48,118 bases of DNA from Anaerolineae bacterium (lineage in GTDB: Bacteria; Chloroflexota; Anaerolineae; Aggregatilineales; J027), in NCBI GenBank assembly GCA_021463865.1, contig JAJTXY010000031.1, positions 1 to 48,118 of the forward strand, given 5' to 3'. Position 1 is the stretch's first letter, and every line of letters begins with the position of its first letter. The notes below the pieces were generated by a model. That model searched no databases, was not told where the DNA came from, and saw only the letters and a list, made by a program, of their open reading frames with translations. The position numbers and the translations under genes were made by a program. Positions 39,770 to 48,118 of the stretch are shown here, piece after piece.

Positions 39770-41005
39770 TTATTTTGAACTGACAAGATGCTCGCGTCTT
39801 ATGCGGGTTGGACGATGCCAATTGACCTTCCACAGTTCTTTTGCCAAATTTTCAAGGCTGGCAAGGTTATGCACAGGCAAAAAATCATCCACATGGGGCA
39901 GCATGGCCTGAGCGCCGCGTGTCAGCGGTTCATAATTGGGCGAACCGAGCAGTGGATTAAGCCAAATGAGGCGGTGGCAGTTACGTTGTAGGCGTTCAAT
40001 TTCCGCCCGCAGTACATCTGGGTCGCCGCGATCCCACCCATCAGTAATCAGCAGCACCACCGCGCCGCGCCCTAGAACCCGTCTTGCCCATTGATAATTG
40101 AATGTGTGTAACGCCTCGCCGATTTTTGTACCACCCCCCCAATCTTTGACCGTCAGCCCGACTTCAGTCAGCGCACGATCCACCGCCTTGCGTCGAATAA
40201 TACGGGTAATGCGGCTGAGGCGTGTGCTAAACATAAACGATTCGACCTGATAGATGCTTTGCGATAGGGTATGAACAAAATGCAGCAGCAAGCGGGTATA
40301 ACGTTCCATGCTGCCGCTGATGTCACAAATCATAACCAGTGGGCGGGGTTTAAAGGTCGGCACGCGCGTCGGCAGATCAATTAATTCACCTGCGTAACGC
40401 ATATTTTCACGAAACAGATGGCGCAAATCCAGTTGATTGCCAGTGCCGGGGTGAAAACGCCGAGTTTGGCGCATCCCCAGTGACCACGCCAGCCGTTCCA
40501 CGATGCGTTTGGCGGCGAGGATTTCTTCACCTGTCATCTCCGCAAAATTTTTGGTACGCAGGGTTTCATAATCACTGTAGGTCGGGACAAAAGTAATCGT
40601 CTCGGTTTCGCTGGTCGCCTGACCATTTTTGGTGGTGGTAGGGGCGCTACCAAAGGTTGGATTGTGCTGCTGCCGTTGAACACGCCGTCCGGGGGATTTA
40701 AGCTCCATCGTAGCCCAATCTTCAACCGGAGTCTGCCAGAAAATATGGAAGGCTTGGTCAAATAATTCCAAATCGCGCTGGCGTGTTACCATCAAAGCGC
40801 GGCAGGCATGGTAGACGTCTTCCTGATGGCCTAAATCTACCAATTGCAGGGCGTGAGAAACATCCATCATGCAGTTGGGGGTGACATCCATGCCCAGCGC
40901 CTTGCACAATCGCCCAAACAGCAGCAGATTTTGCAGGAATTTGCCGCCATGATAGGGTGTATCGGCTGGCCCTAAATATCTGCCCCAACGGGCGCTATTG
41001 TTCAT
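39770..41005 (-). CDS. coxE: CoxE-like VWA-domain protein
   Basis: A 411-residue protein with a helical N-terminal part (QNLLLFGRLCKALGMDV) and a von Willebrand A domain at about 225-400. The metal-ion site is DISGSME in LVMICDISGSM, followed by VALLITDGWDRGDPDVLRAEI-like VVLLITDGWDRG. CoxE works with the AAA ATPase CoxD to insert or build the Mo-Cu site in aerobic CO dehydrogenase and related enzymes. It lies 11 bases after coxD. Confidence 0.85.
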   Translation of the reverse strand: MNNSARWGRYLGPADTPYHGGKFLQNLLLFGRLCKALGMDVTPNCMMDVSHALQLVDLGHQEDVYHACRALMVTRQRDLELFDQAFHIFWQTPVEDWATMELKSPGRRVQRQQHNPTFGSAPTTTKNGQATSETETITFVPTYSDYETLRTKNFAEMTGEEILAAKRIVERLAWSLGMRQTRRFHPGTGNQLDLRHLFRENMRYAGELIDLPTRVPTFKPRPLVMICDISGSMERYTRLLLHFVHTLSQSIYQVESFMFSTRLSRITRIIRRKAVDRALTEVGLTVKDWGGGTKIGEALHTFNYQWARRVLGRGAVVLLITDGWDRGDPDVLRAEIERLQRNCHRLIWLNPLLGSPNYEPLTRGAQAMLPHVDDFLPVHNLASLENLAKELWKVNWHRPTRIRREHLVSSK

Positions 41006-41016
41006 CCCTGCCTCGT

Positions 41017-41922
41017 TTACATTTGCGCCGTCATTTGCATTCGGGCACGGTCAAGCGCGGATTGGAGAGCCTCCCCAGTCAGCATTTGCACATCTTCTTG
41101 ATATTTCAGGATCACCCCCGCTGTCTGCTCAATAATTTCCGGTGAGAGTGTTTGCTGGTCTAGTGCGATGAGCGCCATTGTCCAGTCAAGCGTTTCAGCC
41201 ACCCCCGGCGCTTTAAACAATTCCATACGACGGAGTTCTTGAATAAAGGCCGTCACCTGTTTAGCAAGATTAACCTCGGCGTCGGGTGCTTTGGCCCGTA
41301 CAATGGCGAGTTCTTTTTGAAAATTGGGGTAATCAATCCAATAATACAGACAGCGACGTTTCAGGGCGTCGTGAATTTCGCGGGTGCGGTTGGAAGTGAC
41401 GACCACTACAGGAGGCACAGGCGCTTGAATTGTGCCTAATTCAGGAATTGTGACTTGAAAATCGGAGAGCAGTTCTAGCAAAAAGGCCTCAAATTCTTCG
41501 TCGGCCCGATCAATTTCATCAATGAGTAAGACGGGTGGGCGACCATTGGCGCTCATTTCAAGAGCTTGCAGCAGCGGACGGGCCTGCAAAAATTCGGGTG
41601 TAAATAATCCAGCCCGCATTTCTTCACGGGTCGCGCCGCTGGCCTCTAACAAACGCAGATACAAAAGTTGGTGGGCATAATTCCACTCATAGAGGGCCGT
41701 GTTGACATTCAGTCCCTCATAACATTGCAGGCGGATGAGGTCGGTATCTAAAATCTTGGCAAGCACTTTGGCGATTTCGGTCTTGCCGACACCTGCTTCT
41801 CCCTCCAAAAAAAGCGGCTTATTTAAACGCAGCGCTAAATAAATCGCCGTGACCAATCCCCGCTCGGCAATATAATTTTGAGACTCGAGGGCGGATTGCA
41901 CAGCATCAATATTTTGGAACAT
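41017..41922 (-). CDS. coxD: MoxR-type AAA+ ATPase (CoxD)
   Basis: A 301-residue AAA+ ATPase. Walker A: GEAGVGKTEIAKVLA; Walker B: VLLIDEIDRADEEFEAFLLELL; sensor-1: VVVTSNRTREIHDALKRRC; pattern typical of MoxR/CoxD. In CO dehydrogenase systems CoxD acts as a chaperone for metal centre assembly with CoxE. It is the first gene after an intrinsic terminator located in the 75-base gap behind coxM. AAAAGG precedes its ATG. Confidence 0.88.
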   Translation of the reverse strand: MFQNIDAVQSALESQNYIAERGLVTAIYLALRLNKPLFLEGEAGVGKTEIAKVLAKILDTDLIRLQCYEGLNVNTALYEWNYAHQLLYLRLLEASGATREEMRAGLFTPEFLQARPLLQALEMSANGRPPVLLIDEIDRADEEFEAFLLELLSDFQVTIPELGTIQAPVPPVVVVTSNRTREIHDALKRRCLYYWIDYPNFQKELAIVRAKAPDAEVNLAKQVTAFIQELRRMELFKAPGVAETLDWTMALIALDQQTLSPEIIEQTAGVILKYQEDVQMLTGEALQSALDRARMQMTAQM

Positions 41923-41997: not shown

Positions 41998-42846
41998 TTA
42001 CCCCATCGCGCCACGGACAGCCCGTTTCAGATAGACCCCGGCCATCGCACGGCGGTAGTCTTCGGGTGCATAGACATCGCCCATCACATCGCTTAAATCA
42101 GCGGATAGGGCTTTCGCGGCGGTGTCAAGAGCAGCAGCGTCCAGCGCCGAACCGACTAGAGCATTGGCGGCAGCGGCGGAGAGTGTCGCTTTGGGGGTGG
42201 CCCCACCAACTGCGACACGGGCCTTGCTGCATTTGCCTCCGCTAACTTCTAGTACCACGCACACACCTACTACCGCATAACGGGAGGCGGGGTGGGCCAT
42301 TTTGACATAGGCGCTTTTGGCTTGACCGATGCTCGGAATTTCAACGGCGGTAATGAGTTCACCGGGGTGTAAATCGGTGGTGAATAGGTCTAGAAAGAAG
42401 TCCTCTGCTGCGACCACGCGATTTCCATCTGACCCCTGTAGATGGAGCTTGCCACCGAGGGCCAGTACAACCGTTGGCGGATCGGAGGCCGGGTCAGCAT
42501 GGGCCAGATTGCCACCCAATGTGCCACGATTGCGGACGGCTGGATCACCGACCTGACCGCAAGCACTTGCCAATGCCGGGGCGTGTTTTTTCACATCGGC
42601 GGAACTGGCAATTTGGGCATGGGTCGAAAGCGCCCCGATTTTGACACTGCTCCCACTGACGCTGATCCCCTTGAGTGTGTCCAAACGACCAATATCTACC
42701 AAAGATTCTGGTTCATTTAGACGTAGTTTGAGGGCAGGCAGCAGACTGTGACCACCCGCCAAAAATTTCGCCCCATCACTTGATCCTTTTTGGATGGCCT
42801 CAGCGACGGAAGCGGCCCGTTGATAGTCGAAGTTGCTAGGATACAT
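41998..42846 (-). CDS. coxM: FAD-binding medium subunit (CoxM-like)
   Basis: A 282-residue flavoprotein subunit that passes electrons from the FeS subunit to FAD. FAD motifs: KFLAGGHSLLPALKLR and TLGGNLAHADPASDPP; the C-terminal CO_deh_flav_C region contains KMAHPASRYAVVGVCVVLE. Length is typical. GGAGG, seven bases before the ATG, overlaps the coxL stop region, so translation is coupled. Confidence 0.92.
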   Translation of the reverse strand: MYPSNFDYQRAASVAEAIQKGSSDGAKFLAGGHSLLPALKLRLNEPESLVDIGRLDTLKGISVSGSSVKIGALSTHAQIASSADVKKHAPALASACGQVGDPAVRNRGTLGGNLAHADPASDPPTVVLALGGKLHLQGSDGNRVVAAEDFFLDLFTTDLHPGELITAVEIPSIGQAKSAYVKMAHPASRYAVVGVCVVLEVSGGKCSKARVAVGGATPKATLSAAAANALVGSALDAAALDTAAKALSADLSDVMGDVYAPEDYRRAMAGVYLKRAVRGAMG

Positions 42847-42849
42847 GAT

Positions 42850-45219
42850 TTAACCTCCGTTGCCTTGCAAAACGCGCCAAATCTTGGGCGGTGTGATGGG
42901 CATATCCATGTGTTTGACCCCAAACGGCGCGAGGGCATCCACAATCGCGTTAACGACAGCCGGGGTTGAGGCAATCGTGCCCGTTTCACCCGCCCCCTTG
43001 ACGCCAAGCGGATTGACCGGAGTCGGAGTCTCGGTGCGGTCTGTCTCAAAGGTGGGGAAAAAGTCAGCTTTTGGAATGGCATAGTCCATCAATGACCCGG
43101 TGATCAGTTGCCCATTGTCATCATAGACCGCCCCTTCCCACAGTGCTTGGGCCACGCCTTGCACAATGCCGCCGTGTACCTGCCCTTCAACAATCATGGG
43201 GTTAATCACCTTGCCCACATCGTCAATGGCGATATACCGCTTGATTTTGACCTCACCAGATTCTTTATCCACTTCGACCACGCAAATGTGTGTACCAAAG
43301 GGGAAGGTGCAGTTGGGTGGGTCATAATAGGAGGTGTTGTCTAGGAACGGTTCCATGCCGGGGGGTAAGCTGTAGGCCAATGCCGCTGCCCCTGCGATTT
43401 CCTGAATCGTTTTGGATTGGTCAGGTGAGCCTTTGACAAAGACCTTGCCATCTTCATACACTACATCTTCCGGCGCGGCTTCAAGCATATGTGCCCCTAG
43501 CAGTTTGGCTTTTTCTTTGATTTTTTGGAGCGAATTATAGACCGCCACTGTACCGACGGCGGTGCTGCGACTGCCATACGTTCCATAACCAAAGGGCGTG
43601 CCGAGAGTGTCACTGTGCTGGACGATGACATCATCCACTGAGATGCCTAATTCACCCGCCACGACCTGCGCGACGCTGGTTTCATGGCCCTGCCCGTGTG
43701 ATTGGGAGCCAGTGGTGACAACGACCTTGCCCGTCAAGTGAACACGAACATTGGCACTTTCCCATAGACCCGCACCCCAACCTTCACCGGGCAGGCCGAT
43801 CCATGCCGAGGGAGCGACGCCACAGATTTCGACATAGCTCGAAAAGCCGACGCCGAGATAACGCCCCTGTTTACGCGCTTCGGCTTGTTCCTTGCGGAAA
43901 TTTTCATAATCGAGCATCTTGAGCGCCAAATCGAGGGCCTTTGCATACTGCCCGCTGTCATATTTGAGGCCGTTCAAAATTACTGGATCATAGGGGAAGG
44001 CTTCTGGTGGGATAAAATTCTTGCGGCGGACAGCTACCGGATCGAGACCTAGTTCATGGGCGACCAAATCCACTGCCCGTTCAATGACGTAGGTTGCTTC
44101 AGGGCGGCCTGCCCCACGATAGGCGTCCACCATGCCCGTGTTGGTATAGACCCCATAGACATGACAGAAGATATTCGGGATGCGATACGTGCCGGACAGC
44201 ATACGCCCATATAGCGTGGTTGGGATGCCGGGAGCGATGGTCGAAAGCACCCCGCCGAGATTGGCATAGGTATTGACCTTCAGCGCCGTAATCGTGCCGT
44301 CTCGCTTTGCACCGACCTCGATTTCGGTAATATGGTCACGCCCGTGTGTGGTAGCGATGTAATTTTCGCTGCGGGTTTCCATCCACTTGACCGGGCGGCC
44401 TATTTTGCGCGATAGGGCCGCCATTAGGCAGTATTCGGGGTAGAGGAAAATCTTGGCCCCAAAGCCACCGCCGACCTGCGGGGAAATCACGCGCATCTTG
44501 GTTTCCGGCACACCGAAGACAAAGGCCGTCATCAGCAGGCGCATGACGTGAGGCGCTTGGGAGGTCATCCAGACCGTCCATTCCTCCGTCGCTGCTTGAT
44601 ATTGGGCGATGCAGCCGCGTGTTTCCATCGGTGTGGGGATGAGGCGTTGATTAATCATGCGCTGCTTGACCACCACGTCGGCTTCCTTTAAAGCCCGATC
44701 AGTGGTGTCCTGAGTGCCACATGTCCATTCGAGGGCGATATTGTTGGGAGCATTTTCGTGCAGTTGCGGCGCACCCGCTTTGGTGGCTTTTTCGGCATCC
44801 ACCACGGCTGGCAGCACTTCATAATCCACATGAATGAGTTCAAGGGCGTCTTGGGCCGTGTAACGATCTTCCGCGACCACCACTGCGATACCCGCCCCGG
44901 TGAAGGTCACACGGTCAATTTCCAGTACACGCGGGGTGTTGACGTTATTTTTGACCTTGCCTGCCTGCCACGCACATGGCATCGGGTTCACATCGCTAAA
45001 ATCTTTGCCCGTATAAACTGCCACGACGCCGGGATGTTTGGCGGCTTTGGAGGTATCAATACTTTTGATCTTGGCGTGGGCGTGTGGACTACGCAAAATG
45101 GCGGCGTGCAGCAGGCCCGGTAATTGAATATCTTCCAAATATTTAGCTTCACCTGTAATCAGGCGTGGATCTTCACGACGTTTAATTCTTGAACCAATAA
45201 TTTTTTCGGCAGCAGCCAT
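42850..45219 (-). CDS. coxL: Molybdenum hydroxylase large subunit, CoxL form II-like
   Basis: A 789-residue subunit that binds the molybdopterin cofactor. Domain order: Ald_Xan_dh_C a/b hammerhead at about 15-130, then the cofactor-binding domains to the end. Motif VDAYRGAGRPEATY has AYRGAGR at 366-372, the form II signature; form I CO dehydrogenase has AYRCSFR. QVGGGFGAK at 248-256 and the catalytic glutamate in GVKGAGETGT near the end are present. The substrate may be CO or another purine/aldehyde-like compound; form II alone does not prove CO oxidation. It lies between coxS and coxM. Confidence 0.9.
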   Translation of the reverse strand: MAAAEKIIGSRIKRREDPRLITGEAKYLEDIQLPGLLHAAILRSPHAHAKIKSIDTSKAAKHPGVVAVYTGKDFSDVNPMPCAWQAGKVKNNVNTPRVLEIDRVTFTGAGIAVVVAEDRYTAQDALELIHVDYEVLPAVVDAEKATKAGAPQLHENAPNNIALEWTCGTQDTTDRALKEADVVVKQRMINQRLIPTPMETRGCIAQYQAATEEWTVWMTSQAPHVMRLLMTAFVFGVPETKMRVISPQVGGGFGAKIFLYPEYCLMAALSRKIGRPVKWMETRSENYIATTHGRDHITEIEVGAKRDGTITALKVNTYANLGGVLSTIAPGIPTTLYGRMLSGTYRIPNIFCHVYGVYTNTGMVDAYRGAGRPEATYVIERAVDLVAHELGLDPVAVRRKNFIPPEAFPYDPVILNGLKYDSGQYAKALDLALKMLDYENFRKEQAEARKQGRYLGVGFSSYVEICGVAPSAWIGLPGEGWGAGLWESANVRVHLTGKVVVTTGSQSHGQGHETSVAQVVAGELGISVDDVIVQHSDTLGTPFGYGTYGSRSTAVGTVAVYNSLQKIKEKAKLLGAHMLEAAPEDVVYEDGKVFVKGSPDQSKTIQEIAGAAALAYSLPPGMEPFLDNTSYYDPPNCTFPFGTHICVVEVDKESGEVKIKRYIAIDDVGKVINPMIVEGQVHGGIVQGVAQALWEGAVYDDNGQLITGSLMDYAIPKADFFPTFETDRTETPTPVNPLGVKGAGETGTIASTPAVVNAIVDALAPFGVKHMDMPITPPKIWRVLQGNGG

Positions 45220-45231
45220 GTCTCTACCCTC

Positions 45232-45690
45232 CTATTTCGTTCCCGCAGCCGCTTTGACAGCCGCCACGATGTTTTGGTATCCGGTGCAGCGACAAAGATT
45301 GCCTTCCAGCCCATGCCGGATTTCTTCGTCGGTGGGGTGGGGGTTGCTTTTCAGCAGCGCGATAGAGGTCATAATCATGCCGGGGGTGCAAAAGCCACAT
45401 TGCAGGCCGTGTTTTTCCCAAAACGCTTCTTGCATAGGATGGAGATGGCCGTTGGATTTTAGCCCTTCAATCGTGGTGACTTCGCCCCCATCGGCTTGCA
45501 CGGCAAGGCAGGTACACGATTTCACCAACTGCCCGTTCAAATGGACATTGCAGGCCCCACATTGACTGGTATCACAGCCAACATTTGTGCCTGTTAGCCC
45601 AAGTTCTTCCCTTAAAAAATGAACAAGCAGCATTCTTGGTTCAACTTCACGCTCGTGCAGCGTGCCGTTGACTTTAATGGAGACTTTCAT
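45232..45690 (-). CDS. coxS: [2Fe-2S] small subunit (CoxS-like)
   Basis: A 152-residue iron-sulfur subunit. The plant-ferredoxin-type cluster is bound by Cys39, 44, 47 and 59 ([16 protein letters not shown]). The second, proximal cluster uses [10 protein letters not shown] and CRCTGYQNI. Layout is normal for the small subunit of xanthine/CO dehydrogenases. AGGAGG precedes the ATG at nine bases. It is 12 bases ahead of coxL and 117 bases after coxG. Confidence 0.95.
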
Positions 45691-47463: not shown

Positions 47464-47550
47464 GGATGGCGGCTCCTTGATGGTGATTCACTGTTCGATA
47501 TTTTACCTGATTTAAAGGGCCTTAATTTAACGATAATCTAAGACTCATTA

Positions 47551-47725
47551 TGCTATACTTAAGGTTACAGTCTCCACTTAAGCGCCAATTATGCTAGGCA
47601 ACTTGAGTGCGGATATGATAAGGCGTTTCTCTACACAATAGCGCAACCCTCCTTCCGCATTTCGAGTGCAAAAGTATCGGGCGTGATGTATCCAATCATC
47701 AGTGTAGAGAAGGAGACTGTGTTTT
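47551..47725 (+). ncRNA. Structured noncoding left end of the IS110 element, candidate bridge RNA
   Basis: An extended -10 TGCTATACT (47551-47559) has no -35 upstream, and CTTAAG occurs at 47558-47563 and 47577-47582. TTCTCTACAC (47627-47636) is a perfect complement of GTGTAGAGAA (47702-47711). GAGTGCGGA (47605-47613) can pair with TCCGCATTT (47654-47662), which crosses the first helix, so the two form a pseudoknot or alternate. TTGAGTGC and TTCGAGTGC are repeated at 47603 and 47661. IS110 elements carry a bridge RNA in this position; the assignment here is inference. Confidence 0.5.
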
Positions 47726-48118
47726 ATGCACGCCATCGGCATTGACGTTGGCAAGACCAGCATTGATTTGTGTGTGGCTGGCGACGGCGCACCGAAAAAG
47801 TGGCCCAGCGTCGAAATTTCCCTGACTGACCCCCTTTGGTATCAGACCCTCACCAATCTCACCGAGCAAGCCCTTGTGGTACTCGAACCCACCGGATGGC
47901 ACTTAAGTCGCCCGATTGTGATAACCCTACTCAGGGCAGGCGCGACGGTCTACCAAACCAATCCCCGCAACACCCGCCATATCCGCGAGGCCCATATTTC
48001 CGGTGTCAAAACCGATGCGATGGACAGCCGCGCCTTGGCCTACATCGCCCGTCTGATAGCCGAAGGCCATCCCCCACGTTCCACCTATCCGCTAGATTCC
48101 GAACGCGAGGCCCTTGTC
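47726..48118 (+). CDS. IS110-family DEDD transposase, N-terminal part
   Basis: The first 131 residues of a transposase, cut by the window end. The RuvC-like DEDD domain is intact: IGIDVGKTSID with Asp7, LEPTGWHL with Glu54, TNPRNTRH, and KTDAMDSRALAYIARL with Asp97 and Asp100. The full family protein is about 330-400 residues, so the serine-containing C-terminal domain is outside. AAGGAG at 47710-47715 is ten bases before the ATG and overlaps the 3' arm of the long-range helix, so RNA folding may limit transposase synthesis. Confidence 0.92.
   Translation, partial: MHAIGIDVGKTSIDLCVAGDGAPKKWPSVEISLTDPLWYQTLTNLTEQALVVLEPTGWHLSRPIVITLLRAGATVYQTNPRNTRHIREAHISGVKTDAMDSRALAYIARLIAEGHPPRSTYPLDSEREALV

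Follow-up and report, generated by a model that had tools for sequence, protein, structure and literature searches.

In the IS110 element IS621, the bridge RNA is encoded in the left end of the element, with the target-binding loop lying before the donor-binding loop (PMC11208160, PMC11208158). According to these reports, pairing on the left is between the 5′ half-loop and the bottom strand, and on the right between the 3′ half-loop and the top strand; the two loops are pseudo-symmetric (PMC11208158), and the left target guide, which is 9 nt long with the core at its end, is combined with an 8-nt left donor guide (PMC11208158). The core is CT, the T at the end of the 9-base left guide being almost invariant, and residue N84 of the recombinase has been reported to read this near-fixed and preferred dinucleotide (PMC11208158). 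Since the accessible part of the companion report indicates that element boundaries with a CT core were prioritized (PMC11208160), a clade with other cores could have been overlooked. The accessible text of a 2026 review also speaks of a conserved core dinucleotide (PMC13199778). The IS1111 group shares the DEDD recombinase family and the guide principle, but carries its RNA in the right end (PMC11208160). Natural retargeting via the target-matching part of the RNA is already described in the accessible text on the seekRNAs of ISEc21/ISMch6 and ISEc11/ISXne4 (PMC11187229).

The window, which is the whole 48,118-nt stretch analyzed here, is contig C25 of the 59-contig genome of an uncultured bacterium, and its last base (48118) falls inside an IS110 transposase gene. 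The element at this end resembles IS621 in the left-end position of its RNA, the order of the loops, the strand scheme, and the lengths of the left target guide (9 nt, ending in the core) and the left donor guide (8 nt). It differs in its core, which is TA here and varied among relatives, and in the 5′ part of its RNA: IS621 has a stem-loop before the target loop, whereas none was recognized in the window RNA, whose 5′ end pairs with the ribosome-binding site. Unlike the seekRNA cases, the differently guided copies here share a genome, and their differences extend to the donor guide and the right end. Natural clades with non-CT cores were not mentioned in the titles and abstracts searched; subscription papers lay mostly outside this scope, and the six-RNA figure of PMC11208160 may show other cores.

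Element and host genome

The transposase gene begins at 47726 on the forward strand, and the contig end cuts it after the first 131 codons (47726–48118). The encoded fragment matches the DEDD RuvC-like N-terminal domain PF01548 with 50.5 bits against a cut-off of 29 (E = 2.6e-13). Its residues D7, E54, D97, and D100 align to D11, E60, D102, and D105 of IS621, a very distant recombinase (phmmer E = 0.025 for the 131-aa fragment). In a comparison at the protein level, the best solved relative of the fragment was the ISCro4 transposase (PDB 9t56), with the four DEDD residues aligned at an E value of only 0.0076. The window gene is cut off at codon 131, and the C-terminal Tnp domain with the catalytic serine (PF02371) had no match in the genome of this bacterium; as a probe, PF02371 matched two of five relatives examined and missed the other three. 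The middle of the element, including the catalytic serine, was not found in this assembly, in which each copy is divided between contigs.

Searches of the same genome returned one other copy, on contig C9, likewise cut by a contig end. As in the IS110 group, a long noncoding end of 170 nt lies 5′ of the gene and is combined with a short right end, which extends about 64 nt past a putative stop codon (read by eye, the gene end being putative) on contig C33. Elsewhere in the window, a TPP riboswitch aptamer was found at 217–329 on the forward strand (score 61.3 bits, gathering cut-off 54.3), and three adjoining genes on the reverse strand (41998–45690) look by eye like molybdenum hydroxylase subunits of the CO- or xanthine-dehydrogenase type, beside AAA/VWA-type genes at 39770–41922.

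Layout of the left end

The left noncoding end occupies 47556–47725 of the forward strand, its outer junction being given by the empty site, and no Rfam family matched the bridge-RNA region up to E = 1. The 175-nt region folds at −54 kcal/mol (z = −3.0), a value reached by 1 of 200 dinucleotide shuffles; by itself, this score is modest evidence for a structured RNA.

A preliminary description of the locus had listed two helices and a pair of repeated loops, all of which are present. The 10-bp long-range helix of UACAGUCUCC (47566–47575) with GGAGACUGUG (47712–47721) belongs to the minimum-energy fold, in which AGTCTCC near the inferred RNA 5′ end (47569–47575) pairs with GGAGACT (47712–47718), the ribosome-binding segment of the transposase gene. 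The competing helix, formed by UUCUCUACAC (47627–47636) with GUGUAGAGAA (47702–47711) and read from the sequence, is the closure of the donor loop. The repeats TTGAGTGC (47603–47610) and TTCGAGTGC (47661–47669) contain two GAGTGC motifs; each forms the 3′ half of the apical hairpin in one of two similar loops, which fits the pseudo-symmetry described for IS621 (PMC11208158).

The target-binding loop (47582–47626) consists of a GCGC/GCGU stem, a 12-nt 5′ loop, the apical hairpin GCAACTTGAGTGC, and a 12-nt 3′ loop. The donor-binding loop (47641–47684), which was read from the sequence and parallels that of the second copy, has the same GCGC/GCGU stem, the 5′ loop AACCCTCCTTCC, the apical part GCATTTCGAGTGC, and the 3′ loop AAAAGTATCGG. 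About 13–16 nt separate the inferred RNA start from the target loop, and the fold contains no 5′ stem-loop in the window RNA.

The second copy likewise has its RNA at the left end, and neither of the outcomes named in the preliminary description as refuting it (loss of the helices in other copies, or an RNA at the right end) occurred in this copy. Both helices recur there, the ribosome-site helix with seven identical pairs and the donor-loop helix with six, which read CUACAC/GUGUAG in the window and CCACAG/CUGUGG in the second copy. The covariation that the preliminary description had proposed as a check was thus seen, by reading, as two compensatory changes in the six pairs of the donor-loop helix; AGTCTCC/GGAGACT is invariant between the two copies, showing no covariation, and was not seen by eye in distant relatives. 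Because the guides match DNA in two copies, and not on account of folding alone, we regard it as almost certain that the left end encodes the bridge RNA of an IS110-type recombinase, as had been suggested at the outset. The target loop that relatives have in common with the window element adds to this support.

Target loop and insertion sites

The decisive repeat had been overlooked in the preliminary description: ATTATGCTA stands in the left flank at 47547–47555 and again in the RNA loop at 47588–47596, where it forms the left target guide. The flank occurrence is host DNA and comprises the left target plus the core (ATTATGC-TA, core TA at 47554–47555). In both copies of this genome, the left target guide is identical to the left flank at nine of nine positions (ATTATGCTA for the window copy and CTACCAGTA for the second copy), and the flank nonamer recurs about 40 bases downstream within the loop.

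The right target halves, eight bases beyond the core per copy, were predicted from the opposite half-loops before any empty site was viewed, which gave (TA)TCATATCC for the window copy and (TA)TACGAGAC for the second copy. In the window copy, the right target guide ATATGATA (47613–47620) is the complement of TATCATAT, which was subsequently encountered at the empty site and at the right junction, and the two guide bases (GG) just before ATATGATA are unmatched. The empty site of the window copy, ATTATGCTATCATATG, was present in all four sister genomes of the genus, in which the uninterrupted folB-folE region reads ATTATGCTATCATATGT (4/4); of the eight predicted bases, the six nearest the core were correct and the last two differed. 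The uninterrupted sites of the second copy read CTACCAGTATACGAGAA, again in four of four sister genomes, and here the first seven of the eight predicted bases were correct. Left guide and right target together comprise 15 contiguous matching bases in the window copy and 16 in the second copy, so that the target loop matches both strands of the insertion site for both copies. No target bases were lost at the insertions, which lie within CTAT or GTATAC, and the guide overlap places the junction at TA. Used as a pattern in the same genome, the right target predicted for the window copy had 12 matches, one of which was the RNA itself; none was used.

Donor loop and element ends

The right ends were located on contigs C33 (window copy) and C22 (second copy), where they finish with CCCCCTCC-TA and CTACTCCC-TA, respectively. 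Each left donor guide matches its own right end, with 7 nt in the window copy (CCCTCCT, 47647–47653) and 8 nt in the second copy (ACTCCCTA). In the second copy, the right donor guide can pair over 11 nt with the core plus left end, whereas that of the window copy (AAGTA, 47672–47676, the complement of the left-end TACTT) pairs with five left-end bases and fails at the core, with TC where TA would pair. The left donor guide of the window copy ends in TT and thus departs at the second core base. Since both of its donor guides mismatch the core, the donor loop of the window copy is imperfect. Pairing of the donor loop with both element ends was accordingly found over 8 + 11 nt in the second copy and over 7 + 5 nt, with core mismatches, in the window copy, and sequence matches between guides and DNA exist for both loops in both copies.

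Comparison of the two copies

The left ends of the two copies are identical in 94 of 170 aligned columns (about 55%, a slightly low value, as the aligner shifted the GGAGACT segment), and the two loops are built alike, with outer stems of GCGC/GCGU in the window copy and GUGC/GCAU in the second copy, 12-base half-loops, and an apical hairpin. The coding fragments share 340 of 393 bases, the last 99 being wholly identical, and the first 99 bases of the right-end contigs are also identical, with differences in the last 16–17 bases before the core. The differing parts are thus the end of the right end, the left end with the RNA, and the first ~300 bases of the gene. Target and donor ends have both been re-specified between two copies within one genome, as their sequences demonstrate. 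Because the differing parts would adjoin in a circle, a single exchange between circles or a homogenized middle would explain the pattern, and one of these processes may have produced it.

Relatives and the core dinucleotide

Among 154 genomes of the order, 16 (including that of the window) had matches at E ≤ 1e-10, which yielded 17 related elements and, with the two copies described above, a set of 19. Among genome contigs, one relative was found, L005, whose contig has the same length as that of L015 (37,877); the two were counted once, as L015. Matches were also found in 45 genomes of a 400-genome sample of the phylum, whose loci lie outside the counts below, and in 20 plasmid records at 31–36% identity. 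Viral contigs contained no relative.

A direct repeat of at least nine bases at a spacing of 35–60 was present in 14 of the 19 elements, whereas the rate per shuffled element was 0.027 and 8 of 71 control windows of real sequence had such a repeat. A joint automated test required a 4-bp stem, 12-base half-loops, an apical hairpin, and an in-register guide matching the flank at 8 of 9 positions or more. It also returned 14 of 19 elements, whereas 20 shuffled sets of 19 averaged 0.10 hits with a maximum of 1, and a single hit came from the 71 controls. The core was mirrored in 13 of these 14 hits (L083 being the hit lacking a core complement), and in none from shuffles or controls; L007, L008, L013, L014, and L021 gave no hit. 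By hand, the target-loop architecture was recognized in 17 of the 19 elements, no such loop being recognized in L014 and L021, and the flank match was short (~5 nt, by eye) in L007 and L013. All four pairs of the outer stem form in 17 of 17 loops, counting G-U, and at three of these positions the type of pair varies among the loops. The left guide of L008, CCCCAGTAT, occurs once more in the apical part of its target loop, about 137 nt 5′ of the transposase start, as if duplicated.

Read in the IS621 register, the last two bases of the left guide take eight forms (TA, AC, AT, GC, GT, CA, GA, and CT). The core was mirrored as its complement in the opposite (3′) half-loop in 16 of the 17 hand-delimited loops (permutation mean 4.6, maximum 12 in 20,000), with L083 breaking the rule. 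These loops were delimited with the expected core known, and the complement was allowed to lie two or three bases from the stem. This count leaves out L014 and L021; an initial version with 14 elements, which omitted L080, gave 12 of 14, and L080, L007, and L013 were added to reach 17. In 14 of the 16 cases, the guide including the core agrees with the left flank as well, at no fewer than 8 of 9 positions, while the cores of L007 and L013 were read from the RNA alone. Furthermore, the right donor guide pairs with the core and left end over at least 6 nt in 11 of 15 elements, compared with 11 of 210 mismatched pairings; this count, for which the last two flank bases had to match the guide, also leaves out L007 and L013.

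The core dinucleotide in this clade therefore appears to be set by the RNA and not to be a fixed CT, with the cores of the relatives taken from left flanks and RNA. The contrary reading, in which all cores conform to a fixed NT like that of IS621 (CT and GT in the two copies here) while misplaced junctions account for the variety among relatives, seems unlikely to us, even though it draws on several observations. No IS621-type CT core was found in the two copies, for which the guide overlap gives TA, though the junctions alone also fit CT and GT, since CTAT or GTATAC is shared; IS621 itself tolerates GT, AT, and TT (PMC11208158), and the cores of the relatives were read with no right junction found. 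However, the register of the left guide is fixed by the stem, and in this register eight forms occur, which are mirrored both in the 3′ half-loop and in the right donor guide. At the position aligned with N84 of IS621, in a loosely aligned stretch, N is present in 4 of 17 aligned elements (both copies of this genome, L079, and L083) and other residues in 13; L015 and L021 could not be aligned there and were left out.

Right ends of the relatives were sought in three ways. A joint search with donor guide and right target in 10 elements gave true scores of 16 to 9 and mismatched pairings of 9 to 14, with no convincing junction; the scores above 14 of L080 and L079 were not counted, as the long matches fall by eye in the donor-loop apical hairpin. 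Predicted right targets (13 elements) and a core-anchored search (9 elements) also gave no convincing junction, one weak candidate being found in L079, 97 nt past the stop (AT-AATGTC, predicted AT-AATGCC). For L081, an empty site was sought at 11 loci of its genus, which were too diverged for use. In L005, a second ORF starts by eye about 35 nt past the transposase stop (from about 4137); it may belong to the element, which would explain the absence of right ends near the stop.

Promoter and ribosome-binding site

In the −10-like hexamer TATACT (47554–47559, forward strand), the core TA is followed by the first four left-end bases, so that the hexamer is present in the integrated and circular forms alike; it occurs at the same place in the second copy. 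The TA core common to both copies may be explained by this double use as the first two −10 bases. The extended −10 without a −35 that had been described earlier was confirmed insofar as TATACT is preceded by TGC and no −35 lies 15–19 bp upstream (best 3/6 to TTGACA), but the TG is host target DNA to the left of the junction, which is present in the four empty sites and absent from the second copy (CCAG-TATACT). For the integrated and the joined context of each copy, hexamers 15–19 bp 5′ of TATACT were scored against a TTGACA consensus that may not be that of the host. In the integrated contexts, the best scores were 3/6 for the window copy and 4/6 for the second copy (TTGTAA, in the host flank). 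In IS110 bridge RNAs, the circle promoter combines a −35 in the right end with a −10 in the left end, and the preliminary description expected the same here; neither right end offers a recognizable −35, however, and the best hexamer in either joined junction was again 3/6.

The target reads TGCTATCAT, an extended −10-like sequence 5′ of folE (window 47530–47560, L027–L030), and the folB-folE target block looks nearly unchanged in the four sister genomes. The apparent extended −10 may be partly inherited from a host promoter, and the element may have taken over the promoter of a folate gene.

It had also been suggested that folding restrains the transposase through its ribosome-binding site. 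The 3′ arm does pair with GGAGACT, but 23% of shuffles mask the site of the window copy equally well or better and the helix is invariant, which leaves such a restraint weakly indicated and only suggestive. A broader form of this idea, in which the region is mainly a 5′ leader that masks the ribosome site against read-through transcription and the loops are incidental, we consider improbable. It would account for the pairing of AGTCTCC with GGAGACT in the best fold, for the retention of both segments in the second copy despite ~55% left-end identity, and for strong hairpins over the ribosome site in L011, L015, and L022, which occupy the last ~50 nt before the start and were as closed in none of 60 shuffles. 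Yet masking at or below the 10% level was seen in only 5 of 19 elements and is thus not general (0.23 for the window copy and 0.17 for the second copy), and the identity of guide and flank as well as the predicted right targets are left unexplained. Masking of the ribosome site may exist alongside the bridge RNA. The hairpins of L011, L015, and L022 may act as a translation guard of their own, placed between the bridge RNA and the gene.

Discussion

The principle described here is that of the known IS110 bridge RNA, and natural retargeting is known as well from the accessible text of PMC11187229. As far as our searches go, the distant recombinase clade, the occurrence within one genome of two retargeted copies backed by empty sites, and the evidence of an RNA-specified core are new.

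In the proposed mechanism, the RNA would be transcribed and bound by the recombinase, and the element would be excised as a circle. The target loop would then pair with both genomic strands, its left guide with the bottom strand and its right guide with the top strand, while the donor loop would pair with the two element ends brought together in the circle, and strand exchange would take place at the common core. That the 9-nt repeats are target-site duplications or ordinary insertion repeats instead of guides is extremely improbable: a direct repeat between flank and element could come from duplication, and 8 of 71 control windows hold one at such spacing, but the second occurrence sits inside the element in a fixed loop register, the right target at each of the two empty sites matches the other half-loop as its complement and not as a repeat, and only 1 of 71 controls passed the stricter joint test.

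We assign a probability of roughly 0.6 to a more far-reaching interpretation, namely that in the IS110 clade of this order the core would be written in the bridge RNA and not fixed by the recombinase, and that the guides would be rewritten together when the core changes. The parts that determine specificity (the last ~16 nt of the right end, the left end with the RNA, and the first ~300 nt of the gene) would then form one cassette that is continuous in the circle and exchangeable as a unit.

Two copies in one genome, together with empty sites in four sister species, amount to a natural retargeting experiment. If the reading is true, variable cores would make it testable which protein contacts set the core. 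Since bridge recombinases are under development as genome editors, a clade with eight cores would, if true, be a source of enzymes with a free choice of the joining point.
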